Positions 25,547-39,191 of a stretch of 42,125 nucleotides of DNA are shown in pieces (the first letter of the stretch is position 1; each line of letters opens with the position of its first letter). The notes beneath the pieces were generated by a model. The model worked only from the letters and a program-made list of their open reading frames with translations. It made no database searches and was not told where the DNA came from. Made by a program: the position numbers and the translations under genes. Source of the stretch: an uncultured Bacteroidota bacterium (lineage in GTDB: Bacteria > Bacteroidota > Bacteroidia > Bacteroidales > VadinHA17); contig CALMJY010000277.1 in NCBI GenBank assembly GCA_937864815.1, positions 1 to 42,125 of the forward strand, written 5' to 3'.

Positions 25547-27488
25547 TTATCATATTAAACTGATCATTGGGCTGATTGCATTTTTTATTTTATTCCTTCC
25601 TTTCAAGGGATTCTCTCAGGGATTTCATACTACATCCAACAAGGCTTTAAAGATTTACAATGAAGGGCTTACTTCATATGATTATCTTGATTATCCGAAG
25701 GCTGAAAACCAGTTTAAGGAAGCATTAAAATTGGATCCTAAATTCCTGGAAGCATATATGATGCTTGGAGAATTGTATCTTAAACAAAAAAGATATCCGG
25801 AATCTGCTGAAAATTACAGTAGGGCGGTCAGAATAGACTCTCTTTTTTTTAAACCTGTATTTTTCAGTCTGGCAACCGCTGAAATGATGACAGGTGATTA
25901 CCAGAATGCCAAAATACATTTCCAGGTGTATCTTGAACAGAAAGGAATGTCGGAAAAGAACCAGTTAATTGCACGGAAAAATATTAGGAATTGTGAATTT
26001 GCAATTGAAGCAGTAAAGAATCCCGTCTCCTTTAATCCTGTTAATGCAGGAAATGGTATTAACACCAGTGAGGATGAATACTGGCCTTCCATAACAGTGG
26101 ACGGACAAACATTGATGTTTACAAGGCAGACCTTAAGTTATAATAATTCACTTTTTGGAAACCAGGCACAGGAGGATTTTTATATAAGCACCTGGGATGA
26201 TAATAAGTGGAATACAGCATTAAACGCCGGACAACCTTTGAATACTCCAGGTAATGAAGGTGCTCAGACACTGGCATCAAGCGGAAACTATATGTTTTTT
26301 ACTGCATGCGACAGACCAGGAGGAGTTGGTAGTTGTGATATATTTTTTTCAGTATACAATGATGGACGTTGGACCCAACCGTATAATCTTAATTCACCGG
26401 TGAATACAACTATGTGGGAATCACAGCCTTCTATCAGTTCTGATGGAAAAATACTCTATTTTTCAAGTAGCAGACCCGGAGGTTTTGGAGGTAAGGATAT
26501 CTGGTATTCTGTACTGGATACAAGTTCCCGTTGGAAATTTCCTGTGAACATGGGAAAGAATGTAAATTCAGAAGGAGATGAAATGTCTCCTTTCATTCAT
26601 TTTGACGGCCGTACCCTCTACTTCTCATCAGATGGAAGGGCAGGAATGGGAGGATTTGATCTGTTTCTTACACGTATGAACCGTGACAGTGTGTGGAGCG
26701 AACCTGAAAATCTTGGCTATCCAATAAATACATATAATGATGAGATGGGGCTCGTAATCGAATCAAATGGTAAAAGAGCTTATTTTTCTACTGTAAGGGA
26801 AAAATCAAAAGGAAAGGATATCTTTTATTTTGATCTGGATGAATCGATACGACCAGATCCGGTTTCCTACCTCAAGGGTAAAGTCATTGACAAGGTTACT
26901 GGTGCAATGATAAAGGCAGAATATGAGCTTATTAATCTTTCCACAAATCAGGTAACTATAAAAAGCACAACTGATTCAAGGGGCAGTTTTCTTGTATGTC
27001 TTCCTTCAGGCAATAATTATGGGATTAATGTCAGAAAACCAGGCTACCTTTTTCATTCTGAGAATTTCCTTTTCGAAGGTATCCATACGGTATCAGAACC
27101 ATATATTAAGAAAATTGTTTTGAGTCCCATAAAAATCGGAGAGAAAATGCTGCTTGTGAATATATTCTATGCTACAGATTCCTGGGAGATTAAAGAAGAA
27201 TCATCAGCTGAACTAAGTAATCTTGCGGATCTTCTGTTAGAGAATAAGAATATGATAATGGAAATAGGTGGACACACAGATTCAACAGGATCAGATGAAC
27301 ATAATAAGGTCTTATCAGAAAAACGTGCATTATCAGTGGTCAATTATCTGATAAATAGAGGAGTGTCTAAAGAACGACTTAAATATAAAGGTTATGGAAA
27401 TTCAGTTCCCATAGGTGATAATGAAACTGCTGAAGGGAGGCAGCTTAACCGGAGGACGGAAGCAAAAGTCATTGACATAAAAAAATAA
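25482..27488 (+). CDS. OmpA-family outer-membrane protein with TPR and PD40 repeats
   Basis: A protein of about 668 residues built of an N-terminal secretion signal (LIIGLIAFFILFLPFKGFSQ), TPRs (about residues 50-165: NKALKIYNEG, AENQFKEALKLDPKFLEAYM, AENYSRAVRID), a PD40/TolB-like propeller with repeats such as ILYFSSSRPGGFGGKDIWYS and TLYFSSDGRAGMGGFDLFLT, a carboxypeptidase-regulatory-like beta domain (LKGKVIDKVTGAMIKAEYEL), and a C-terminal OmpA peptidoglycan-binding domain (EIGGHTDSTGSDEHN, LSEKRALSVVNYL). It would link outer membrane and wall. The start is uncertain: the ATG at 25482 overlaps queE by 65 bases and puts 30 polar residues ahead of the signal core; the frame is open upstream to 25371, with no good start codon closer to the signal. 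Confidence 0.85.
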   Translation: MSKKIHTGEYHFSHINICIYPDYHIKLIIGLIAFFILFLPFKGFSQGFHTTSNKALKIYNEGLTSYDYLDYPKAENQFKEALKLDPKFLEAYMMLGELYLKQKRYPESAENYSRAVRIDSLFFKPVFFSLATAEMMTGDYQNAKIHFQVYLEQKGMSEKNQLIARKNIRNCEFAIEAVKNPVSFNPVNAGNGINTSEDEYWPSITVDGQTLMFTRQTLSYNNSLFGNQAQEDFYISTWDDNKWNTALNAGQPLNTPGNEGAQTLASSGNYMFFTACDRPGGVGSCDIFFSVYNDGRWTQPYNLNSPVNTTMWESQPSISSDGKILYFSSSRPGGFGGKDIWYSVLDTSSRWKFPVNMGKNVNSEGDEMSPFIHFDGRTLYFSSDGRAGMGGFDLFLTRMNRDSVWSEPENLGYPINTYNDEMGLVIESNGKRAYFSTVREKSKGKDIFYFDLDESIRPDPVSYLKGKVIDKVTGAMIKAEYELINLSTNQVTIKSTTDSRGSFLVCLPSGNNYGINVRKPGYLFHSENFLFEGIHTVSEPYIKKIVLSPIKIGEKMLLVNIFYATDSWEIKEESSAELSNLADLLLENKNMIMEIGGHTDSTGSDEHNKVLSEKRALSVVNYLINRGVSKERLKYKGYGNSVPIGDNETAEGRQLNRRTEAKVIDIKK

Positions 27489-27517
27489 AATGGCCGTTTT
27501 CACTATAAACGGCCATT
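27489..27517. terminator. Bidirectional hairpin terminator
   Basis: AATGGCCGTTT (27489-27499) pairs perfectly with AAACGGCCATT (27507-27517) around a 7-base loop, starting directly after the OmpA-family stop. With A-rich sequence on its left and a convergent gene 54 bases to the right, it can stop transcripts in both directions. Confidence 0.7.
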
Positions 27518-27570
27518 CATCCCATTGCCATTGGGAATGCAGACATCGAATAATATACCTTGAACCAGTC

Positions 27571-28401
27571 TTATATTATCATATTTACATATTTTTTTTG
27601 AAGCTGATCTTTTTTTACCAGTGCTTTAAATGGCAGTGAAAAATAAATTCCTGTTCCGCTGGTACCATTCCCCCTGATATTGAATGAACCATTCATAGCA
27701 TTAATTAATTTCTTTGCCAGGGATATATTCATTGCAGTGGTTAAATCCGGATACCTCCCTAGTGATTCGGAGAGATCATTTGTATGAAGAAAATCCAGTG
27801 TTTTTGAAAATCCCTGGCCTGAGTCCAGAATATAAAAAGTAATTTCATTATCGGTGTTATAGTAACCGATTTTAATGTACCCTGAATTAGTATGTTGTAA
27901 AGAATTATGAAAAAGTGATCTTAATACCCTGAATATTTTGTTTTTGTCTATATAAATCTCGTTTGTGCCTGCATTTTGTATTTCGGTTACCAGTTCAACA
28001 TTCTCTTTGCCGCTTCTTTGCATTGTTTCCCTGAATTCTGAAATTAGCAAATCCAGCATGTTGTTCAGATTGCAGCTGTCCTCATTATTTTGTGAACCAC
28101 CAGTATCCAGAATAGCAGATTCCAGATAATTCTCAAAAAGAAATAAAAGCTTCTCGCATGTAAAGTAGATCTGGTTTATGAATTCTTCTTTTTCAGATTC
28201 CATTAGTGTACTTTCCTTGAGAAGAAACGAAAATGCAACAATAGCATTCATTTGTGTCCTTATCTCATGAGACATCCCGTTCAGCACAGAATTGTGAAAT
28301 GCTATTGTTTTGGAGAAAGGACTAATAACAGTTTCCTTTATAAGAGTTCTGCTTTCGGCATTTTCTCCCGACGATCCGGAGTTACCTTGAATTTCAAACA
28401 T
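27571..28401 (-). CDS. Orphan soluble histidine kinase (HisKA-HATPase)
   Basis: A 276-residue histidine kinase with no visible input domain or membrane segment. The HisKA box reads NGMSHEIRTQMNAIVAF with the phospho-acceptor at about His45; the usual proline after the T is replaced by Q. The HATPase_c domain has an N box (LRSLFHNSLQHT), G1 (LDSGQGF) and a G2-like GNGTSGTGIYFSLPF. The first 35 residues look disordered (GNSGSSGENAES). No response regulator lies in the window. It follows the TPR/anti-sigma-like gene by 18 bases and is probably in its operon, so it may take its signal through a partner protein in the peptide-exporter island. Confidence 0.82.
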   Translation of the reverse strand: MFEIQGNSGSSGENAESRTLIKETVISPFSKTIAFHNSVLNGMSHEIRTQMNAIVAFSFLLKESTLMESEKEEFINQIYFTCEKLLFLFENYLESAILDTGGSQNNEDSCNLNNMLDLLISEFRETMQRSGKENVELVTEIQNAGTNEIYIDKNKIFRVLRSLFHNSLQHTNSGYIKIGYYNTDNEITFYILDSGQGFSKTLDFLHTNDLSESLGRYPDLTTAMNISLAKKLINAMNGSFNIRGNGTSGTGIYFSLPFKALVKKDQLQKKYVNMII

Positions 28402-28419
28402 GAGTTATGACTGATGATG

Positions 28420-29166
28420 TCACTTAATTTTTCTTAGAATTTTCTTTGCTTCCCTGCTGTACAGTCCACCTTCTTTCCTTATTGAAACAAGAAGTTCTGA
28501 TGCTTTTGTGTTTTCCTCAGTTTTCAAATAGCATAGTGCCAGATACCATTTTGCTGATTCTATAAAGAGGTTGTCTTTGTCGTCAATCACTGTAGTAAAG
28601 GATCTCTTAGCATCATTATACTTCTTCTCCTCCATTTTGGATACTCCTGAAAGCAAATGAGTTTTCATGTCATTCGGATTCTTTTCCAGGACTTTTGCAA
28701 ACTGTGACGCTGCACTCCTGTAATCTTGTGCATTATAATACTTTAGTCCAAGTATATAATCGCTGTTGGTATCAGTAGAAGATGATCGCTGAACTGAAGG
28801 TGCTTCATATGCCTGATAGAACTGGCTTACAATCTCTTCACTGGTAAGAGTCTTGCCTGAAAACAGGATGAGACTTGTAATTAATACAACTCCGGCAAAT
28901 GCTGCCACATATTTTAATGAAACCATTCTTTTGACAACGGCCGCCTTTTCTCTTTGACGCCTTTTATCCTCCAGTTCGGATAATTTAATACGGAGTGACA
29001 TAACTGACTGCTTCTTAAGAATCTCATCACTCTTTTTCCGCAATTCGACCTCAAACTTTAGATCAGGATTATATTCCATCTCCTTTATGAACCACTGTCT
29101 TTCAGACTCGGTCATTTCAAAGGATATATACCTTTCAATGAAGTAGGAAAAATCTTTTGTTTTCAT
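28420..29166 (-). CDS. Single-pass membrane protein with anti-sigma-like N-terminus and TPRs
   Basis: A 248-residue protein. Residues 1-83 are charged and helical (FIERYISFEMTESERQWFIK, NPDLKFEVELRKK), resembling the N-termini of Bacteroidota anti-sigma factors; a single membrane segment follows at about 84-103 (KYVAAFAGVVLITSLILFSG); residues 135-245 form TPRs (LGLKYYNAQDYRSAASQFAK and ESAKWYLALCYLKTEENTKA). This orientation would place the N-terminus in the cytoplasm and the TPRs in the periplasm. With an ECF-type sigma gene 3.7 kb away in the same island, a transmembrane anti-sigma role is plausible but not proven, since no HxxxCxxC zinc motif is present. Confidence 0.62.
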   Translation of the reverse strand: MKTKDFSYFIERYISFEMTESERQWFIKEMEYNPDLKFEVELRKKSDEILKKQSVMSLRIKLSELEDKRRQREKAAVVKRMVSLKYVAAFAGVVLITSLILFSGKTLTSEEIVSQFYQAYEAPSVQRSSSTDTNSDYILGLKYYNAQDYRSAASQFAKVLEKNPNDMKTHLLSGVSKMEEKKYNDAKRSFTTVIDDKDNLFIESAKWYLALCYLKTEENTKASELLVSIRKEGGLYSREAKKILRKIK

Positions 29167-29196
29167 TCTATTTAGTTTAAAAATAATCGGCCTCAG

Positions 29197-29325
29197 CTTC
29201 CTGTTCAGGAAGGATTAAAATATGGTTTAATGATTATTAACTCACACTTCCTATTCAGGAAGAATTAATTTAACTCCTGAGAAGTTCAGTAATAATATGT
29301 TTTTATGTTTCTGTTAAGGAAACAT
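29197..29325. repeat. Three spaced dyad repeats upstream of the TPR/anti-sigma-like gene
   Basis: Dyads are CTTCCTGTTCAGGAAG (29197-29212), CTTCCTATTCAGGAAG (29247-29262) and a variant ATGTTTC-7-GAAACAT (29305-29325, core TTTCTGTTAAGGAA). The cores begin at 29198, 29248 and 29308, spacings of 50 and 60 bases, near whole helical turns. They fill the 243-base gap between the peptide gene and the TPR gene. They could be protein-binding operators or mRNA hairpins that lower expression of the downstream genes relative to the peptide. Confidence 0.6.
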
Positions 29326-29409
29326 AGAAACTACTTATTAAACCAAAAGTTTTAAATAACCAATAAAAATATTTCAGAGCATCATTTAGTTGATACTCAA
29401 ACTAAAAAA

Positions 29410-29544
29410 TCAAATTTTTGTTGGAGGAGGAACAGGAAAATCACCATTTCCGGGATCACCTCCACGTACATTGATCATTTCTTCGCTTGTAAGTTCAAAT
29501 GCATCAAAAATGTCCTTTGTCAATTCAAAATTCTGTGTTTTCAT
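29410..29544 (-). CDS. Double-glycine leader peptide (short secreted-peptide precursor)
   Basis: A 44-residue ORF. It opens MKTQNFELTKDIFDAFE and continues LTSEEMINVRGG, then a 15-residue core DPGNGDFPVPPPTKI and stop. Counting back from the cleavage site the leader has L(-12), T(-11), E(-8), M(-7), V(-4), G(-2), G(-1), matching the consensus recognised by C39 peptidases of ABC exporters. A C39-peptidase exporter gene lies 4 kb away in the same island. The core is acidic/proline-rich with no Cys or Ser and a single Thr, and no lanthionine, radical-SAM, YcaO or ATP-grasp modification gene is in the window, so it may act unmodified. It is read divergently from the TPR-CHAT gene. Short length makes chance an issue, but the leader match and context are strong. 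Confidence 0.78.
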   Translation of the reverse strand: MKTQNFELTKDIFDAFELTSEEMINVRGGDPGNGDFPVPPPTKI

Positions 29545-29669
29545 AATTCATTCTTTTTAAGTTCTACTAATTCAGGGGTTATTGTTTTATAACCTACATG
29601 TCGGTACATGCCATTTTGTGACATGAAAAAATCAACTATTTTTAATATAAATTATAAAACGCAGATAAT

Positions 29670-29677
29670 CAAATATA
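29670..29677 (-). promoter_or_regulatory. -7 promoter box (TATATTTG) for the peptide gene
   Basis: TATATTTG on the minus strand matches TAnnTTTG. It predicts a leader of about 120 bases before the peptide ATG at 29544; the leader contains a GGTTAT/ATAACC hairpin (29577-29594). It lies 41 bases from the divergent TPR-CHAT box. Confidence 0.4.
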
Positions 29678-29717
29678 TATTGTAGCAAGTTTCGCCAGTT
29701 ATTTACCTACACTTTCA

Positions 29718-29725
29718 TATATTTG
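29718..29725 (+). promoter_or_regulatory. -7 promoter box (TATATTTG) for the TPR-CHAT gene
   Basis: TATATTTG matches TAnnTTTG with a weak TTTCG at the -33 position (29690-29694). The predicted start near 29731 makes the upstream in-frame TTG (29731) an unlikely initiator and supports the ATG at 29761. Confidence 0.5.
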
Positions 29726-29760
29726 AAAAATTGTTTATCGGTTTTCAGGTATTATCAAAA

Positions 29761-32700
29761 ATGTCAGGGAAACTAAAGAAATTGATATTCGTTTTATCAG
29801 CAGTGTTCATTAAGCAAATTATTCTTTCAGCTGATAATGGATCAAATTATTCCATGATAATGTCTCATCATCATAATGAAGTTGTTGAGAATGTGACATA
29901 TTTTGATATATATCAATCAGATGAGATTTCCAGACTTAATAAAATTCTGGTAGCACAGTTGAGAAGCAGAGACTATGAATCTGCTGAAACAACTGTTAAG
30001 GAACTGGAAATTAAAATTAAAAATGGGATTGATGATATTTACCTGCTTACCGAATCGAATTATTATGTTGGGATATATTACCAGTTAATGAATAATTGTA
30101 ACCTAACAATCAATTATTTGACACAGGTAATAAAAATAAAGGAACAGTATAAAACTATAGACACAATTTATTTCAAGTCACTGTATAATCTGGGTGGTAC
30201 ATATTCCAGACTGGGTAATTTTGAAGCCCATAAAAATCTGACACTAAGAGCTATTGATTCAGGAATAAAAGTATATGGGCCGGATAGTCCGGAACTAATT
30301 CTCCCTTATGCAAGTCTTATTACAGCCTATATTGAACTGAAAAATTATAATCAGGCACTTGAGTTAACGGACCTCGCATACAGAATTGCCGATCTGAACG
30401 AGGAAAATGCAGATCCTGTAGATATTGCATTTCTTTATGGTAATTTGGGAGTTCTTTTCAATTCGACAGGTGATTATTCAAGGAGCAGGGTATTTCTTGA
30501 AAAGGCTGAACTTTTTTATATTAAAACAGATCCATATTACATTGATGCTCATGTGTCCATTCTGAACAGCCTGGCATATTCCCTTAAAAACCTTAATGAA
30601 CCCGAGCTGGCTGAGCAATACTATAAGAAAGGAATAAAATTAGCAATGAACAGCTATTCTCTTGGCTCTTATCAGGTCCTTCGTGTTTATGCCGGCAATC
30701 TGGCCATAGAAGGCAGAATTGAAGAAGGGGAGGCAGTCCTGGGAGATTTAATATCACGTATCATAGCCCGGGAAGGCATTAATTCCCGTGGATATTATGA
30801 GGCACTTGCATTTTATGCAGATTTTCTTCACGAATTCAAAATTGATGAAAACAGAGCTCTTGAAATGTTCCTGAAATCTATTGAGTATATGGAAACACAG
30901 GAAGATTCGTTTTTAAAATATTACACAAAACTAAGCTGTGCATCTATCCTTTCCGAAAGACAGGAATATGACAAGTCACTTGAAATGGTTCAATCATTAC
31001 TTTTTTCCAAAGAAGAAATGCAAACCGGAATTGGTAATCTTTCTAACCCGGATGTAATGCTATTGAATCCAGACAAGGACCTGCTGGATGTTCTTCAGAC
31101 AAAATACCTTATACTGAAAAAATACAATAATGATTTTCCAGATCAGAGAGTTCTGGAAGCATCTTCAAAAACTTCAGAATTGATAATTGCACTGCTTGAC
31201 AGGATCCGTATTAATATTAGTGAAGAGGAAAGCAGGTTACTTCTGGGAGACCGTTATCGGAATGCATATATTCTTGTAATTAGCGATTTTTATTCTCTAT
31301 ATGAACAAACCGGTCAGAAGTTCTATCTTGAGAAAGCATTTGAATATACTGAGAAAAGCAAAATTGCAGGTTTGTTAACTGCCACACGTGAACTTAAAGC
31401 AACAGAATTTCATATTCCTGAAGATCTGGCTGAAAAAGAAAGAGAATTACAATCTGAAATAGCCTTGCTTAACGACAGAATTTCAGGGAAGTCTAATGTT
31501 GACAATAAAACTGAGGAGTTGATTCAGACATGGAAAGACAATCTTTTCAATACAGTCAGAAAAAGGGATTCTCTGGTAAAGGTGTTTGAAAAAGATTATC
31601 CCGGCTACTATTCAATAAAATACAACACAGAGGTACTTGAACCTTCAATGTTACCCGGAATAGCCGGAAACAGAACCAATTACGTAAGTTATATAGTATC
31701 CGATACCAACCTTTATGTAACAGTTTTAAATAAAAGGTATCATGAATTAGTTTCTGTTCATATAGATTCAGGATTCTTTAAGAAAATAAGGGAGTTCAGA
31801 CGAATGTTATCGGCTCCCGATTTTAATGATGCAAGGGAAGATTATATGAACTTCCAGAAGACCGGATATGATTTATTTTGTATCCTTATTGCTCCGGTTG
31901 AAGATTACTTTATTTCCGAACGTGTTTTGATATCTCCCGATAATCTTTTATCATATTTACCATTTGAAACCCTCCCTGTAAAGAATAGCTCATGCAGTAA
32001 TTTGTTCTATAAAGAAGTTGAATTTATGATGGAGAAGTATGATATTTCATATACATATTCTGCAACTTTTCTGGCAGAAAACCTGGTACAGAAAAAAAGC
32101 GCTGGTATTAAAGCAATAGCATTTGCCCCGGACTATTCTGACCCTGTAAATATTCAGGAACTTTATCAAAAAAGACAACAGCAGGGTAATATACTGTATG
32201 ACCTCCCTTATGCAAGAATGGAGGCAGAATATGTTTCAAAGATATTGGGTGGGAAACTTCTGATCAATGAGTCTGCCAGGGAATCTGCGTTTAAAAAAGA
32301 TGCACCGGATTTTGACATTATTCATCTTGCAATGCATACTGTACTGGATGATGAAAATCCGATGCGATCCACTCTTATTTTCAGTCCCGATTCAACCGGC
32401 CAGGAAGATCGTTTTTTAAGGACCTATGAGATTTATAATATCCCTCTAAAAGCCAGAATGGTGGTTCTCAGTTCATGTAATACCGGTACAGGAAAACTTT
32501 TTTCCGGTGAGGGTATATTGAGTCTTGCGAGAGGGTTTATTTATTCAGGTTGTGAATCAGTTGTAATGTCAATGTGGGAGATTGAAGACAGGGCAGGTAC
32601 AGATATTGTAAAACTTTATTATGATTACCTGAAAAAAGGATATTCGAAAAGTATGTCATTGAGAAAAGCCAGAATGGATTTTCTCAGGGAAGCAGATCAG

Positions 32701-32856
32701 CTCAGAGCACATCCATATTTCTGGTCAGCCCTGGTCGTTTACGGTGATAACTCCCCGATTATAAGACCAGTCTGGTCCCGTTTCATAATAGCTGCCCTGA
32801 TAATCATCTTCGCAGTTGTCTTGATTTATCATGTTAGAAAACGAAGATATTCATGA
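29761..32856 (+). CDS. Membrane-anchored TPR-CHAT (caspase-like) protein
   Basis: A 1031-residue protein: N-terminal signal sequence (KKLIFVLSAVFIKQIILSAD), about ten helical TPR-like repeats (residues 50-480, for example YFKSLYNLGGTYSRLGNFEA and AFLYGNLGVLFNSTGDYSRS), a linker with coiled coil (about 540-610), a C-terminal CHAT domain (about 640-995), then a membrane segment (RFIIAALIIIFAVVLIYHV) and basic tail RKRRYS. The CHAT catalytic pair is present: His859 in DIIHLAMHT and Cys906 in VLSSCNTGTGKLFSGEG, followed by LARGFIYSGCESVVMSMWEI. With a signal sequence and a C-terminal anchor, TPR and CHAT domains should face the periplasm. It is divergent from the peptide gene and overlaps the sigma gene tail-to-tail by 28 bases. 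It may be a protease triggered by ligand binding to the TPRs; substrate unknown. Confidence 0.86.
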   Translation: MSGKLKKLIFVLSAVFIKQIILSADNGSNYSMIMSHHHNEVVENVTYFDIYQSDEISRLNKILVAQLRSRDYESAETTVKELEIKIKNGIDDIYLLTESNYYVGIYYQLMNNCNLTINYLTQVIKIKEQYKTIDTIYFKSLYNLGGTYSRLGNFEAHKNLTLRAIDSGIKVYGPDSPELILPYASLITAYIELKNYNQALELTDLAYRIADLNEENADPVDIAFLYGNLGVLFNSTGDYSRSRVFLEKAELFYIKTDPYYIDAHVSILNSLAYSLKNLNEPELAEQYYKKGIKLAMNSYSLGSYQVLRVYAGNLAIEGRIEEGEAVLGDLISRIIAREGINSRGYYEALAFYADFLHEFKIDENRALEMFLKSIEYMETQEDSFLKYYTKLSCASILSERQEYDKSLEMVQSLLFSKEEMQTGIGNLSNPDVMLLNPDKDLLDVLQTKYLILKKYNNDFPDQRVLEASSKTSELIIALLDRIRINISEEESRLLLGDRYRNAYILVISDFYSLYEQTGQKFYLEKAFEYTEKSKIAGLLTATRELKATEFHIPEDLAEKERELQSEIALLNDRISGKSNVDNKTEELIQTWKDNLFNTVRKRDSLVKVFEKDYPGYYSIKYNTEVLEPSMLPGIAGNRTNYVSYIVSDTNLYVTVLNKRYHELVSVHIDSGFFKKIREFRRMLSAPDFNDAREDYMNFQKTGYDLFCILIAPVEDYFISERVLISPDNLLSYLPFETLPVKNSSCSNLFYKEVEFMMEKYDISYTYSATFLAENLVQKKSAGIKAIAFAPDYSDPVNIQELYQKRQQQGNILYDLPYARMEAEYVSKILGGKLLINESARESAFKKDAPDFDIIHLAMHTVLDDENPMRSTLIFSPDSTGQEDRFLRTYEIYNIPLKARMVVLSSCNTGTGKLFSGEGILSLARGFIYSGCESVVMSMWEIEDRAGTDIVKLYYDYLKKGYSKSMSLRKARMDFLREADQLRAHPYFWSALVVYGDNSPIIRPVWSRFIIAALIIIFAVVLIYHVRKRRYS

Positions 32857-33398
32857 TATTCAGGATCTTCCCTGACAAGATCCATCAAAGCTTCTTTACA
32901 TAGATATTTTTTTCTCCTTGCATATTCCTCACTTTTGAGATCCAGGTTATGAGCTATCTCCTCATATGATTTTCCTTCAGCAAACATATTCAGAACTATT
33001 TGCTGATCAGGTTTAAGCTTTGTAAAAGCTCTTGTTAAAATTCTTTCAAGAAGCTGATTGTTGTACTCATCAGAGCCATCATCATCAGGATGGTCTGCTG
33101 TAATATTGGTGGTCCGTTGTCTTTTCCGCAATTGTGACTTCCACACATTTTTCACTATACCGAAGAAATAACCTTTGATGTCAGTTGTCAGATTTATCTT
33201 ATTATCAGTGATCTGTTCAAAGAGTATAATTACAGAATCCTGTAAAACATCTGAAACATCATCATCCGATCCGCTGTTTTTCAGAACATGGTCTTTCACC
33301 ATTCTGTAATAGTTGTCATACAACCAATTAAGGATTCTGTCATCCTGATTTCGGATGCCTTCAATAATTTCAATATCAGAGTACTTTCTGAATAACAC
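32829..33398 (-). CDS. ECF-like sigma-70 family RNA polymerase sigma factor
   Basis: A sigma factor of about 189 residues with region 2 (DNYYRMVKDHVLKNSGSDDD, then VSDVLQDSVIILFEQI and IKGYFFGIVKNVWKSQLRKR) and a region 4 helix-turn-helix (LKPDQQIVLNMFAEGKSYEE and IAHNLDLKSEEYARRKKYLC). It would redirect RNA polymerase to a small set of promoters. I chose the GTG at 33398 (reading LFRKYSDIEIIEGIRNQDD), because a -7 box at 33421-33428 lies upstream of it, whereas the longer ATG at 33464 lies before that box. It converges on the TPR-CHAT gene and is divergent from the C39 exporter. The likely partner is the anti-sigma-like membrane protein at 28420-29166. Confidence 0.85.
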   Translation of the reverse strand: MLFRKYSDIEIIEGIRNQDDRILNWLYDNYYRMVKDHVLKNSGSDDDVSDVLQDSVIILFEQITDNKINLTTDIKGYFFGIVKNVWKSQLRKRQRTTNITADHPDDDGSDEYNNQLLERILTRAFTKLKPDQQIVLNMFAEGKSYEEIAHNLDLKSEEYARRKKYLCKEALMDLVREDPEYHEYLRFLT

Positions 33399-33420
33399 GA
33401 TGGAAATTAAGTAACAGTCG

Positions 33421-33428
33421 CAAATATA
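33421..33428 (-). promoter_or_regulatory. -7 promoter box (TATATTTG) for the sigma factor gene
   Basis: TATATTTG on the minus strand matches TAnnTTTG and lies 23 bases before the GTG at 33398, predicting a leader of about 18 bases. It excludes the upstream ATG at 33464 as start if this is the true promoter. Confidence 0.5.
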
Positions 33429-33547
33429 ATACTTCCTTAATCCAATTCTTAAAATCAGAGACAAAGGAGGGTATTTTGTGCCCAGGCCAGGTCTGCTTAT
33501 GCAAAATATAGATATATTTACTAATAGAAATATTGCCCTTTTTTAAG

Positions 33548-35734
33548 ATGTCATTTCCTTTTGTAAAACAACCGGATGCTATGGATTGCGGCCCTGCCTG
33601 CCTCAAGATGATTGCCGGTTATTACAAAGTGAATCACACACTTGAATCATTGCGGAAAAAATGTTATATAACCAGGGAAGGAGTATCCTTTCTTGGATTA
33701 TCTGAGGCAGCAGATTCAATAGGTTTCAGGACAATAGGTGTAAAAATACCATTTGACCTTTTAAAAGAAAATGTTCCACTTCCATGTATCGTACATTGGA
33801 GGCACAAACATTTTGTTGTGGTTTACAAAATTGTAAAAGACAAAATATGGGTTGCTGATCCCGGTATAGGACTTATAAAATATCAACGTGAGGAATTTAT
33901 AAAAAACTGGGCTTCAACTGCAAGGGAGGGTGAGCCTGCCGGGCTTGTCCTTATTGTTGAGCCTACACCCGCAATTTTTGATTCTGAATCAGTTAAGGAA
34001 AGAACCGGAGGATTCAGGTTTCTATTAAAGTATTTCAGATTTTACAGGAAATTTTCGTTCCAGATTATACTTGGAGTAATACTTGCAAGCCTCATTCAGC
34101 TTGTAATTCCTTTTCTGACACAGTCTGTAATTGATATCGGGTTGAATAATAATGACCTTGAATTCATTTACCTTATACTTTTTGCTCAGCTGGCACTTGT
34201 CCTTGGACGAATGTCAGTTGAATTTATAAGAGGTTGGCTATTGCTGCACATAGGCTCAAGGGTAAATGTTGCAATAATATCAGATTTTCTGCAAAAGCTC
34301 ATGTCATTGCCAGTCTCTTTTTTCGATACCAAACTCACCGGTGATATTCTGCAGAGAATTGATGACAATAACCGAATTGAAGAATTCCTCACTTCTGCAA
34401 GCCTGAGTATATTGTTCTCATTCTTTAACCTTGTAATATTTGGAATTGTTCTTGCCATATACAGTATTAAAATACTGCTTGTATTCCTTGCAGGAGCACT
34501 TCTATACATATTATGGGTTTCCATATTTATGAGATCACGCGGTCGCCTGGATCATCAGCGGTTCAGAAAAATGTCAGAATCGGGAAGCAAGCTTATCAAT
34601 ATTGTAAACGGGATGCAGGAGATTAAGCTTACACAGAACGAATTGAGCAGCAGATGGGACTGGGAGAAAATACAGGCAGCTCTTTTCAGACTTAAAATGA
34701 AAGGCTTATCGATAATACAGTTCCAGTCAGCAGGTGCTACGCTTATAAATGAAGTAACTAATATTATAATTACAATAATTGCTGCGACAACAGTATTAAA
34801 GGGGGATATGACCTTAGGTATGATGCTTGCTGTACAGTTTATTATAGGCCAGCTCAATGTTCCTGTAAGTCAGATGATAGGATTTTTTAAAATGTCGCAG
34901 GATGCAAAGATCAGCCTTGACAGACTTGCAGAAGTTCACCATATGGATAGCGAAGAGGAATTCCCGGAATCAAAAGTCAGGAAGCTGCCTGAAAAAAAGG
35001 ATTTATATATCAATAATCTTTCATATCAGTACGAAGGTCCTCATTCACCGTTTGCACTAAAGGATATAGATCTCTATATTGAGGAAAATAAAAAGACGGC
35101 AATTGTCGGGGCCAGCGGTAGCGGAAAAACAACATTGCTTAAGATGATTATGGGCTTCTATCAGCCGGTATCTGGTGAAATACTCATTGGTGATACACGC
35201 CTGGCAAACATAAGTTTAAAAATATGGCGAAAAAAAGTTGGTGCCGTAATGCAGGATGGATTTATATTTCCCGATACCATTGCAGCAAATATTGCCCCCG
35301 GTTCGGAAGATATTGATGAAGAAAGACTTACCAGGGCAGTTGAGATAGCCAATATAAAGGCATTTATTGAATCTCTGCCACTGGGATACAATACAAAGGT
35401 AGGAGCAAATGGTCACGGCCTGAGCGAAGGTCAGAAACAGAGACTGCTCATAGCAAGAGTTGTTTATAAAAATCCTGATGTAATTATTTTTGATGAAGCG
35501 ACAAATTCACTTGATGCTTACAATGAAAAGGTTATTGTTGAAAATCTTTCAGGATTTTTCGATGGAAAGACAGTGATTATTGTTGCCCACAGGCTGAGTA
35601 CTGTAAAAAACGCTGATAAAATTGTAGTTCTGGATGCCGGAAGGATTGTTGAAACTGATACCCATGAGAATCTTATTCAAAGCAGGGGAATATATTATAA
35701 CCTTGTAAAAAACCAGCTTGAACTTGGGAGCTGA
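33548..35734 (+). CDS. C39-peptidase ABC exporter (PCAT) for double-glycine leader peptides
   Basis: A 728-residue half-transporter that would cleave leader peptides after Gly-Gly on the cytosolic side and export the core. The N-terminal C39 peptidase has the catalytic Cys14 in QPDAMDCGPACLKM, His88 in RHKHFVVVY and Asp104 in WVADPGIG. Six membrane segments follow (about residues 165-450), then an ABC ATPase: Walker A VGASGSGKTTLLKM, signature LSEGQKQRLLIAR, Walker B VIIFDEATNSLD and H-loop IVAHRLST. The ATG at 33548 is preferred to a TTG at 33533. The HlyD-type gene starts 9 bases after its stop. The only double-glycine peptide seen in the window is at 29410-29544. Confidence 0.95.
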   Translation: MSFPFVKQPDAMDCGPACLKMIAGYYKVNHTLESLRKKCYITREGVSFLGLSEAADSIGFRTIGVKIPFDLLKENVPLPCIVHWRHKHFVVVYKIVKDKIWVADPGIGLIKYQREEFIKNWASTAREGEPAGLVLIVEPTPAIFDSESVKERTGGFRFLLKYFRFYRKFSFQIILGVILASLIQLVIPFLTQSVIDIGLNNNDLEFIYLILFAQLALVLGRMSVEFIRGWLLLHIGSRVNVAIISDFLQKLMSLPVSFFDTKLTGDILQRIDDNNRIEEFLTSASLSILFSFFNLVIFGIVLAIYSIKILLVFLAGALLYILWVSIFMRSRGRLDHQRFRKMSESGSKLINIVNGMQEIKLTQNELSSRWDWEKIQAALFRLKMKGLSIIQFQSAGATLINEVTNIIITIIAATTVLKGDMTLGMMLAVQFIIGQLNVPVSQMIGFFKMSQDAKISLDRLAEVHHMDSEEEFPESKVRKLPEKKDLYINNLSYQYEGPHSPFALKDIDLYIEENKKTAIVGASGSGKTTLLKMIMGFYQPVSGEILIGDTRLANISLKIWRKKVGAVMQDGFIFPDTIAANIAPGSEDIDEERLTRAVEIANIKAFIESLPLGYNTKVGANGHGLSEGQKQRLLIARVVYKNPDVIIFDEATNSLDAYNEKVIVENLSGFFDGKTVIIVAHRLSTVKNADKIVVLDAGRIVETDTHENLIQSRGIYYNLVKNQLELGS

Positions 35735-35743
35735 TATTTGTAA

Positions 35744-37033
35744 ATGAAAGAAAGAAAACCTGAAATATTATATTCTGAGCCGGTAAGGGAGATTATGGGG
35801 AATCCTCCATCAGGCATACTCAGATGGGGCAATATTGTCCTTTTTGCAGTTTTTGTGATATTTCTGTTCTTTTCATGGATACTGAAATATCCCGATATGG
35901 TGCCGGCACCGGTAGAAATTACAACAATGAATCCACCTGCCACACTTGTTACCAAGATAACGGGAAGAATAAAGATACTGATGATAGGTGATAAAGACAG
36001 TACATATGCAGGTCAGGTGCTTGCTGTTATGGAAACTACTGCTTCCATTGATGAAATTAACCGGTTGAGACAGGCTATTGATTCAATAGGAAATCCTCAG
36101 ACTGCAATTTATAAGTCCCTTCCACAGCTTACACAGCTTGGCGAGATTCAGAATTCCTATGCAACATTTATGAAGAATCTTTCCGATCTGAATTCATATA
36201 TCAATAATGATTTTTATGGAAACAAGATTAATTCCCTGTCTGAGGAGATAAATGCTACAGGTGAATATATCGAAAGGCTTAAGGTTAAGGAAAAACTGTT
36301 TATTGAAAACAGAAAGCTTGAGTCTAACAAATACAGACGGGATTCACTGCTCTTTATGAATAAAGTAATTCCTGAAAGTGAAATTGAAAGATCTCATCAG
36401 GCTCTTATCAGGATTAACATTGAATTACAGCAAGTCCGGCTTGATTACTCGGAAAAATCAATCGAACTTGCCGAGAAAAGACAATTGCTTCAGGATTATA
36501 AAATCAAACGTGTTGAGGAAGAACAAAAATTCGTCTCCCTTCTGAACGAGTCCTACCTGAATCTGAGGGCCCAGATAGATATATGGGACAATAATTATCT
36601 TCTGAGATCACCATTTGACGGGGTGGTGACTTTTACTCAGTTCTGGAATGAAAATCAGGTAGTTATGAAAGACCAGCCTGTATTGAACGTTATACCACAT
36701 AATGCCGGCAGTTATGTTGGAAGAGTCAGGCTGAAGATGCAAAGGTCAGGGAAAGTTAAGCCAGGGCAACCGGTAAATATTAAATTAAGCAGCTTCCCTT
36801 ATCTGGAGTATGGAATGGTTAAGGGAATTGTAAGAACAAAATCTCTGGTACCTTCAATTGACGCCTATATAATCGAAATTGATCTGCCTGATGGCCTAAC
36901 TACGCTGTATGGCAGAAAGCTGGAGTTTACCCAAAATATGAGTGGCACAGCTGAGATTCTTACCGAAGATCTGCGTCTTCTGCAGAAACTGATAAATCCT
37001 TTAAAATATCTGATAACTAAAAATCAGCGCTGA
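35744..37033 (+). CDS. HlyD-family exporter adaptor
   Basis: A 429-residue periplasmic adaptor that would couple the C39 exporter to an outer-membrane channel. It has one membrane segment (about residues 29-48, IVLFAVFVIFLFFSWILKYP), a first half-lipoyl region, a long helical hairpin (about residues 100-265, with heptads such as INIELQQVRLDYSEKSIELA), the second half LLRSPFDGVVTFTQFWNENQ, and a C-terminal barrel (GRVRLKMQRSGKVKPGQPVN). Length and layout match bacteriocin-type HlyD adaptors. No TolC gene is next to it; the one at 11549-12871 or another could serve. Confidence 0.92.
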   Translation: MKERKPEILYSEPVREIMGNPPSGILRWGNIVLFAVFVIFLFFSWILKYPDMVPAPVEITTMNPPATLVTKITGRIKILMIGDKDSTYAGQVLAVMETTASIDEINRLRQAIDSIGNPQTAIYKSLPQLTQLGEIQNSYATFMKNLSDLNSYINNDFYGNKINSLSEEINATGEYIERLKVKEKLFIENRKLESNKYRRDSLLFMNKVIPESEIERSHQALIRINIELQQVRLDYSEKSIELAEKRQLLQDYKIKRVEEEQKFVSLLNESYLNLRAQIDIWDNNYLLRSPFDGVVTFTQFWNENQVVMKDQPVLNVIPHNAGSYVGRVRLKMQRSGKVKPGQPVNIKLSSFPYLEYGMVKGIVRTKSLVPSIDAYIIEIDLPDGLTTLYGRKLEFTQNMSGTAEILTEDLRLLQKLINPLKYLITKNQR

Positions 37034-37196
37034 CCTGCTACTTAAAATAAAGGAGCTTCCATTAATCATCCCATTTCATTTATTTATCTTATTTCTTTGA
37101 GTATTATTAAATATTTCAATATTTTCGTACTCTTAAATTTCCATGCTATGTCATGGTGTGAACTTTGATAAAGAGCTGAACCTAAAAGGATTGAAT

Positions 37197-39191
37197 ATGA
37201 CTAAAAAAAATCCGGATGACTCTGTTCGTGAAGAACAATCCGGAACGCCTGAGGGCGTTGCCGGAACTGAGGATGCCATTCCAGAAAAAAAAGAGCCTGA
37301 AGCTGTGACCGAAATGGCTTCTGATGCGCTAGCTGATGAAACTGGTGGAGAGAATACCAGTAAGACTGAAAAGACAAAAAAAAGGAAACGTGCTTCAGCA
37401 AGACATGAAGAAGAAATTCCTGCTGATGATCACGTTTCTGAACCAGAAAATATTGAACTTCCACCTGTCGATTACACTGGTTATACAAAACATGACCTGG
37501 TGGAGACACTTGTTTTATTAGTTGAGAACAGGCCGCCATCTGAAATAAGGAATGATGTTGAAAGAATCAAAAGCCTGTTCTACAAAAAATTAAAACAGGA
37601 GGCTGAAGAGCGCAAGAATAAATTCCTTGAAAGTGGTGGTAAAATAGAAGAATATAGACCCTGGGTCGATCCTGATGATGCAAAAGTAAAGCATCTTCTG
37701 GAAAAATTCAGGGAAAGAAAAACAGATTACAGTAAAATTCAGGAAGCTGAAAAATACGAAAATCTTAAGAAGAAATATGAAATAATTGATAAGATAAAGG
37801 ACCTTGTTAACAGGGAGGAGTCTATCAATAAGACTTTCCACGATTTCAGAGCTCTTCAGAATGAGTGGCATGCAGTTGGAGTCGTGCCACAAACATCATT
37901 AAAGGATCTTTGGGAGAATTATCATCATACTGTTGAAGTATTCTATGATTATATTAAGATCAATAAGGAATTAAGAGACCTGGATCTTAAAAAGAACCTG
38001 GAGATAAAAGTTCTTCTTTGCGAGAAAGCAGAAGCTCTTCTTCTTGAACCTAATGCTGTAAATGCATTCAGAGCTCTGCAGGATTACCACAACCAGTGGC
38101 GGGAAATAGGCCCGGTACCCCAGGAGTCAAAAAATGACATCTGGGACAGATTCAAGGAGGCAACTGCGCAGATCAACAGAAGGCACCATGAGTATTTTGA
38201 AAAACAGAAAGATGATCAGAAGAAAAATCTGGACGCTAAAATAGCCTTATGCGAGGAGGTCGAGGCAATCAGGAATGAAGAAATGAAAAGCTTCAGAGAG
38301 TTTGATGAGAAGGCTGAAAAGGTTGTTGAACTTCAGAAAATCTGGAGAACAATTGGCTTTGCTCCCAAAAAGCAGAATAATAAGGTTTACCAGAGATTCA
38401 GGGATGCATGTGATGCATTTTTTGAAAAGAAAAGATCATTTTATTCAGATAATAAAGAATTACAGCTCAATAACCTTCAGAAAAAGATCGATCTCTGTGT
38501 GCAGGCAGAGGCCCTTCAGGATAGCACAGACTGGAAAGCAACATCAGATGCACTAATTAAACTGCAGAAGGAATGGAAAGAAGTCGGACCTGTACCCAGG
38601 AAACAGTCCGAAAGATGCTGGAAACGATTCCGTAAGGCATGTGACCATTTCTTCAACAAAAAGACTTCATATTTTAACGAGCTTGATACATCATACGAGG
38701 ACAATCTTAAGGCAAAGCTTGAAATCATTGATGAACTTGAGAAATTTGAGCCGGGTGCAGAAGTACAGAAAGCGTTTGACAGACTTAAGGAACTTCAGCG
38801 TAAATGGACAGAAGTAGGATTTGTTCCCTTTGAAAAGAAGGATGAAATTGCAAACAAATACAGAAATGCTCTGAACAACCAGTTCGACAGGTTAAAGATT
38901 GCTGATGAAGATAAGAGCATACTGAAGTATAAAACAAAACTCGACAGTCTTAAAGTAAATCCTAAGGCATCCCGTAAAGTAAGAAATGAGAGGGATAAAT
39001 TCTTTACCAAAATTAAACAGTTGGAAAGTGACATTGTATTGTGGGAAAATAATATAGGTTTCTTTGCAAAATCCAAAAATGCCGATACTATGATACGGGA
39101 GGTAGAGGATAAAATAGAGAATGCTAAAAAGCTTATAAAAACCCTGGAGGAAAAAGTCAGGATGATTGATCAGTCAGGACTTGATGACTAA
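37197..39191 (+). CDS. DUF349 repeat protein
   Basis: A protein of about 664 residues with an acidic/basic low-complexity N-terminus (residues 1-75) followed by helical DUF349 repeats. Five copies are recognised by the W-xx-(V/I)G-xxP core: EWHAVGVVPQTSLKDLWENY, QWREIGPVPQESKNDIWDRF, IWRTIGFAPKKQNNKVYQRF, EWKEVGPVPRKQSERCWKRF and KWTEVGFVPFEKKDEIANKY. The C-terminus is coiled coil (about 570-660). The cellular role of DUF349 proteins is unknown. The ATG at 37197 (MTKKNPDDS) is preferred to 37143; a near-consensus box GAACTTTG at 37161-37168 supports it. The 163 bases before it hold no other feature. Confidence 0.86.
   Translation: MTKKNPDDSVREEQSGTPEGVAGTEDAIPEKKEPEAVTEMASDALADETGGENTSKTEKTKKRKRASARHEEEIPADDHVSEPENIELPPVDYTGYTKHDLVETLVLLVENRPPSEIRNDVERIKSLFYKKLKQEAEERKNKFLESGGKIEEYRPWVDPDDAKVKHLLEKFRERKTDYSKIQEAEKYENLKKKYEIIDKIKDLVNREESINKTFHDFRALQNEWHAVGVVPQTSLKDLWENYHHTVEVFYDYIKINKELRDLDLKKNLEIKVLLCEKAEALLLEPNAVNAFRALQDYHNQWREIGPVPQESKNDIWDRFKEATAQINRRHHEYFEKQKDDQKKNLDAKIALCEEVEAIRNEEMKSFREFDEKAEKVVELQKIWRTIGFAPKKQNNKVYQRFRDACDAFFEKKRSFYSDNKELQLNNLQKKIDLCVQAEALQDSTDWKATSDALIKLQKEWKEVGPVPRKQSERCWKRFRKACDHFFNKKTSYFNELDTSYEDNLKAKLEIIDELEKFEPGAEVQKAFDRLKELQRKWTEVGFVPFEKKDEIANKYRNALNNQFDRLKIADEDKSILKYKTKLDSLKVNPKASRKVRNERDKFFTKIKQLESDIVLWENNIGFFAKSKNADTMIREVEDKIENAKKLIKTLEEKVRMIDQSGLDD

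Follow-up and report, generated by a model that had tools for sequence, protein, structure and literature searches.

A conserved Bacteroidales island joins a double-glycine peptide, a TPR-CHAT protease and an ECF sigma factor in a possible envelope signalling cassette

CHAT proteins occur in many bacteria, yet to our knowledge few of those that act neither in CRISPR nor in cell death have a known substrate. Among the closest described systems is Craspase (type III-E CRISPR; Csx29, Csx30 and CASP-sigma), in which the protease Csx29 cleaves Csx30, an inhibitor of the sigma factor (PMC10028731). Another Craspase cuts after L407 and carries K670 at the site of the P1-binding aspartate of separase (PMC9729208). 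With Lys at this site and a cut after Leu, it shows that CHAT proteases differ at P1. Here, we describe a contig of an uncultured Bacteroidota bacterium (CALMJY010000277.1 of assembly GCA_937864815.1, lineage VadinHA17), analyzed at its whole length of 42,125 bases (the window) within a genome of 4.66 Mb in 348 contigs. Seven genes in 27,571-37,033 encode a histidine kinase (HK), a tetratricopeptide repeat (TPR) membrane protein with an anti-sigma-like N-terminus that we call TPRas, a peptide with a double-glycine (GG) leader, a TPR-CHAT protease, an extracytoplasmic function (ECF) sigma factor, a C39 exporter and an HlyD-type adaptor. We suggest, at close to even odds (probability about 0.48), that these genes form a single cassette for envelope signalling, in which a peptide-regulated CHAT protease cuts TPRas after Arg127 and frees the ECF sigma factor. 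The C39 exporter and HlyD would cut the precursor behind Gly-Gly and export a short Pro-rich core. The exported core would regulate a membrane-anchored, extracytoplasmic TPR-CHAT protein of the separase and Csx29 kind by way of either the TPR superhelix or the cleft, with a role as activator slightly favoured over one as inhibitor. Active CHAT would cut TPRas on the extracytoplasmic side, within the linker next to the membrane. The cut TPRas, probably degraded further by other proteolysis, would no longer restrain the ECF sigma factor, which would then turn on its genes.

On our reading, the cassette belongs with the anti-sigma systems regulated by proteases and has an unusual element in its peptide. 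It shares with Craspase the overall fold of the TPR-CHAT protease and a sigma factor held by an inhibitor which the protease cuts, a step only proposed here. The ECF factor matches the type III-E sigma model weakly (21.5 bits, cut-off 100), and PADLOC gave no Cas7-11 (gRAMP) match in five cassette proteins. Unlike in Craspase, the CHAT protein and most of TPRas are predicted to lie outside the cytoplasm, a peptide stands in the place of the RNA, and the predicted P1 residue is Arg instead of L407. Proteolysis of RseA by DegS and of RsiW (PMC10028731, available in part) similarly joins a membrane anti-sigma protein and an extramembrane cut, here proposed, to ECF output. Yet the protease here is a CHAT protein rather than the PDZ serine protease of the RseA/DegS pair, and the cassette includes a peptide gene and an exporter. 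DdvA of Myxococcus, to judge by the titles of PDB entries 8rw5 and 8rot, is a transmembrane anti-sigma protein, and its fold matches TPR-CHAT; it is a single chain, whereas the protease and the anti-sigma-like protein are encoded separately here. Bacteroidales clusters for ribosomally synthesized and post-translationally modified peptides (PMC10352776) resemble the island in the GG leader and the peptidase-containing exporter, and two of them include a TPR-coding gene. In contrast, no modification enzyme is seen in our island, and in the accessible portion of that paper "sigma" does not occur and the occurrences of "CHAT" are author names. RRNPP receptors such as NprR and Rap share the TPR peptide-binding fold but have cytoplasmic helix-turn-helix or phosphatase output, where the protein here has a signal-peptide-like N-terminal helix and a CHAT protease output. 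Compared to separase, as covered by the available text of PMC10317155 and PMC4626109, the protein is bacterial and predicted extracytoplasmic, and the P1-binding Asp of separase has no demonstrated equivalent. No publication on a GG peptide with CHAT, a TPR anti-sigma protein and ECF in Bacteroidota was found in the open-licence library searched, subscription papers lying mostly outside the search. The cassette might represent a new route from a secreted peptide to changed gene expression. If true, it would extend peptide signalling in the Gram-negative Bacteroidota by a further route and carry Craspase-like logic, with a CHAT protease freeing a sigma factor, outside of CRISPR and with separase-like Arg specificity.

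The predicted cut site comes from the comparison of TPRas proteins. TPRas (28,420-29,166, minus strand) matches TPR families and reads as an anti-sigma-like N-terminus, a membrane helix (85-103), an extracytoplasmic linker and a TPR domain (131-248), in a structure model with a mean predicted local distance difference test score (pLDDT) of 82.4. The N-terminus had no anti-sigma match in Pfam or NCBIfam and the structure search spanned the TPR part only; its anti-sigma likeness is read by eye and from the operon context. An alignment of 42 TPRas rows, which are 25-56% identical to its first row, has just three invariant residues, M1, R127 and Y208. Arg127 (codon 28,786-28,788, minus strand), the predicted P1 residue, is located in coil between the membrane helix and the TPRs, where pLDDT is below 50 (residues 127-131), and the linker is predicted to be disordered and outside the membrane. 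When the alignment is widened to 121 rows, which overlap with this set, the residue is Arg in 118, Met in two and Val in one (L158), the latter with an adjacent Arg and probably an alignment shift.

Arg127 changes jointly with two residues of the CHAT protein. Methionine at this position was first met in three cassettes, and the Asp of the CHAT W-V-D motif (Asp946, codon 32,587-32,589, plus strand) was then expected to change. Asp946 is indeed Glu in those three cassettes and in three later ones. The expectation held, though its stated ground, identity of Asp946 with the P1-binding Asp of separase, does not. The spacing from C2029 to D2070 in human separase is 41 (from the available portion of the source) against 37 from C909 to D946, which is why the identity was abandoned and only the co-change retained. 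In an unbiased scan of the 22 CHAT columns with at least 95% conservation (184 D-type rows), Glu824 and Asp946 alone differ in all six M-type rows, that is, those paired with Met; S907 differs in four of the six. Around 20 loci are doubled among the 184 rows (L286-L305, in both inputs), as are named and unnamed loci of the same genomes, and the six M-type rows are distinct. On the TPRas side, Arg127 is the only one of 12 columns with at least 85% conservation (84 rows) to differ in all seven Met rows. TPRas-CHAT pairs within 1.5 kb combine Arg127 with Glu824 and Asp946 (23 pairs), Met with another residue and Glu (six) or Arg with a partial CHAT (one), without exception; pairs further apart are Arg with Glu and Asp (eight) or Arg with a partial CHAT (one). 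The invariance of Arg127, the disordered linker, the exclusive co-change and the lack of exceptions within 1.5 kb together argue for a cut after Arg127. Comparison alone points to a partner for a CHAT protease, to the predicted site of its cut and to two residues that are candidates for its specificity.

The TPR-CHAT gene (29,761-32,856, plus strand) starts with Met at 29,761, and residue numbers count from 29,752. It encodes TPRs and a CHAT domain with a strong Pfam match (E=5.5e-52; 177.4 bits, cut-off 24). His862 (32,335-32,337) and Cys909 (32,476-32,478), both on the plus strand and the catalytic dyad by family, are invariant in the 44-row CHAT alignment. By domain and His/Cys dyad the protein is a member of the clan CD proteases, with predicted activity. 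Helices at 4-26 and 1007-1033 of the structure model are probably a signal peptide and a membrane anchor, which would place the protein outside the cytoplasm and tie it to the membrane. The nearest solved folds in a structure search are Csx29 and separase, and sequence alignment of the CHAT domain with solved separase or Csx29 gave no relevant match. Glu824 (32,221-32,223, plus strand) sits in the helix following strand 788-793. In gingipain-R and MALT-1, the helix equivalent to this one carries the P1-Arg anchor, according to the available part of PMC4626109, and Glu824 is a candidate acidic residue of the S1 pocket by analogy rather than alignment. The structure search also matched DdvA. CHAT might act as a scaffold or sensor that does not cut TPRas, with Arg127 and the co-changing residues of CHAT forming a regulatory contact as in DdvA-like anti-sigma proteins of this fold. 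We regard this as quite unlikely given the invariant catalytic His and Cys and the disordered surroundings of Arg127. Two CHAT genes of G060 (L292 and L294) have Gln and Gly at the sites of Glu824 and Asp946, and no TPRas is recognized beside them.

Conservation within the genus supports a single cassette. Sixty relatives were searched with the TPR-CHAT protein, and the genus amounts to 36 genomes including that of the window. A CHAT ortholog was found in 31 of these, being absent from G007, G009, G030, G032 and G035. It is accompanied by TPRas in all 31 genomes (E<=1e-70), by a C39 ortholog in 30 (at least 72% identity; two or three as contig-end pieces) and by the peptide in 29 (E<=3e-15), with none of these in the other five. 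The joint absence is probably real in G007 and G009 since both genomes are 97% complete; the other three are 77-78% complete. Gene order is conserved between OmpA and DUF349/CTP synthase across the genus, where contigs are long enough. The sequence-only reading had placed all seven parts in the island, which domain matches and coordinates confirm, and its expectation that the exporter and the CHAT/sigma block occur together in a kept order with a conserved peptide holds in these genomes. Kept gene order and the ratios of nonsynonymous to synonymous polymorphism (pN/pS) of the peptide, given below, indicate more than a chance arrangement. An ordinary bacteriocin exporter next to an independent sigma/CHAT locus could find a parallel in relatives, where some C39/HlyD pairs with no recognized CHAT are accompanied by GG peptides that are larger and contain Cys (L253, and L254, which has a CHAT cassette at a distance of about 9 kb). 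Such unrelated neighbours are very improbable here, being already disfavoured by order and joint presence and absence over 36 genomes. The peptide is missing in G028, whose contig breaks at CHAT. The G023 cassette (L043, 1,231-4,347) retains CHAT and ECF, with the peptide on a separate contig. The genome of the window has a second CHAT gene near the end of contig C243 (L051, 10,299-13,127), with no TPRas, ECF or peptide recognized beside it.

The peptide gene (29,410-29,544, minus strand) encodes a precursor of 44 amino acids with a 29-residue leader, MKTQNFELTKDIFDAFELTSEEMINVRGG, and a 15-residue core, DPGNGDFPVPPPTKI, meeting at ...INVRGG/DPGNGDFPVPPPTKI. The precursors form a conserved family whose leader ends in Gly-Gly with a conserved hydrophobic pattern (L18, M23, G28 and G29 invariant in 27 rows), and the C39 exporter expected of a GG-leader peptide is present in the same cassette. 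A family-library search gave no match at E<=0.05, and comparison with bacteriocin families gave weak leader matches only (best E 0.009, in one to three of 27 members). Close peptide pairs (48, from 22 peptides) have a pN/pS of 0.22 for the leader and 0.48 for the core. A second cassette in the genus has its peptide in line upstream of CHAT, with core ends such as ...DPIIIIPPRK, and no C39 beside it; there is a weak partial match in L112, and other C39 genes are about 9 kb off in G017. The peptide of the G057 paralogs ends in ...NPIILPPPPPP, and from these endings a PIIxPP core recurs between paralogs. Away from the orthologous site, nine of ten peptide-profile matches adjoin another CHAT gene and the tenth (G057:C180) adjoins a TPRas gene. 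Those type-A cores displayed are Pro-rich and mostly lack Arg, which would also suit a securin-like inhibitor whose hydrophobic core fills the CHAT cleft until lost or displaced. In the available text of PMC10317155, securin, which has a hydrophobic residue at P1, keeps separase, a near fold, inactive. The inhibitor role is putative and the cores differ widely between lineages, and we consider it unlikely. Marinifilum and Labilibaculum have four to six tandem, near-identical GG-peptide genes beside CHAT (L177, 6,262-6,921; L185, 6,741-7,564; L183, 6,831-7,385). The larger peptides of L253 and L254 resemble ordinary class II bacteriocins, in contrast to the short core here. Three CHAT loci without a GG peptide encode in its stead a protein of about 400 amino acids that looks secreted (L045, 12,206-13,402; L047, 272-1,492; L048, 11,894-13,129), possibly a different trigger, with an end that by eye resembles a type IX secretion sorting tail.

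The association extends beyond the genus. Among the best 80 of at least 559 relatives from named genomes, by title Bacteroidota throughout, 63 loci had at least 1.5 kb upstream of CHAT. A GG-leader open reading frame lies upstream of CHAT on the opposite strand in 56 of the 63, ten of which have more than one, and is lacking in L125, L173, L174, L178, L190, L196 and L199; as background, the pattern matches 29 times in about 982 kb of remaining sequence outside recognized genes. Recognized partners are TPRas (60), ECF (56), HK (49), C39 (42, counting weak ABC matches) and HlyD (31). In L164 and L166 the cassette has two TPRas genes, one by HK and the other by ECF. At class level, with cut-offs of our choice (TPRas from profile position 15 or earlier to 224 or later; CHAT at E<=1e-60), 148 other genomes include 16 with full-length TPRas, 18 with CHAT and 14 with both (Fisher p 2e-14, uncorrected for kinship). 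Of 52 class-level TPRas genes, 47 directly follow a codirectional ECF gene, touching or overlapping it in 22 cases, unlike in the window, where CHAT separates the two. Two other families have ECF-TPRas-C39-HlyD (L238, 6,330-11,368) or ECF-TPRas-C39 (L237, 6,888-10,436) runs with no CHAT near, yet CHAT elsewhere in both genomes. We base the single-cassette reading on joint presence and absence, kept order, the GG frame upstream of CHAT, the off-site peptides beside CHAT, the ECF-TPRas pairing, these runs and the nearest folds. The single system of the sequence-only reading is supported and extended by these data; its peptide ligand, CHAT proteolysis and sigma release we still infer.

The same runs suggest an exporter under sigma-factor control, and the peptide could then be an output of a CHAT-TPRas-ECF signalling core, as a small exported effector or bacteriocin made and exported under that control. 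A core widespread without the peptide and the faster evolution of the peptide core relative to its leader are in line with this. However, the peptide mostly adjoins CHAT itself, even in paralogous cassettes without a neighbouring C39, the PIIxPP motif is common to the cores of paralogs, and the island has no visible immunity gene. Peptide output is on balance somewhat unlikely.

Several observations weigh against a peptide-regulated cut after Arg127. The six M-type CHATs form one clade (Shimodaira-Hasegawa-like approximate likelihood ratio test 99) and represent one coupled change only. In G328, a Met TPRas (L319) lies 6.7 kb from a CHAT with Glu824 and Asp946 (L346). G060 has 13 TPRas matches, and eight of these that are unlinked have Arg in two, Met in three, and Gln, Leu and Ser in one each. 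TPRas rows without a CHAT column (n=14) have Arg in ten, Lys in two, Met in one and a gap in one, which is uninformative because CHAT may be elsewhere; G130 and G181, the sources of the gap and one Lys, have no CHAT match at E<=1e-60. G025 lacks the peptide at a complete cassette locus, and the G023 site is without C39/HlyD, CHAT-ECF being followed by DUF349. Where the sequence around class-level CHAT genes is long enough (45 genes), a GG frame accompanies only seven, and just two of these look convincing by eye (L306 and L307, each with a C39 gene close by). Cassettes at greater distance thus mostly lack the peptide, and the protease-sigma core is wider than the peptide. As a tentative generalization, less secure than our reading of the island, extracytoplasmic separase-like site-1 proteases of Bacteroidota, in many lineages with a dedicated GG peptide, may cut TPR anti-sigma proteins after a conserved Arg. 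ECF signalling across the inner membrane would then be peptide-gated, with specificity and cut site co-evolving.

HK (27,571-28,401, minus strand) is soluble-looking, with HisKA and HATPase_c above Pfam cut-offs, and is an orphan with no response regulator beside it in the island. The ECF gene (about 32,829-33,398, minus strand, GTG start assumed) passes TIGR02937 (50 bits, cut-off 42.9) and Sigma70_r2, with sigma region 4 slightly below its Pfam cut-off (24.8 against 25.7 bits). The C39 peptidase-containing ATP-binding cassette (ABC) exporter (33,548-35,734, plus strand; Peptidase_C39 E=3e-38 and ABC domains) is followed by the HlyD-type adaptor (35,744-37,033, plus strand; HlyD_3), which adjoins C39 in the genus loci. 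No immunity gene is seen among the annotated genes of the island. Searches with Rfam (27,000-38,000) and for tRNAs (whole window) gave no match. Conserved blocks in the ECF-C39 intergenic alignment (36 rows) resemble by eye what we take to be ordinary Bacteroidetes promoter elements, and we draw no claim of a sigma-specific promoter from them. Two near-identical palindromes, 50 bases apart, lie at 29,197-29,268 (CTTCCTGTTCAGGAAG) and 29,290-29,340 (CTTCCTATTCAGGAAG). We dropped them as a conserved element, with no common hairpin in the seven loci passing a strict peptide pattern (the window not among them). A third inverted repeat is likewise located between the peptide and TPRas genes.

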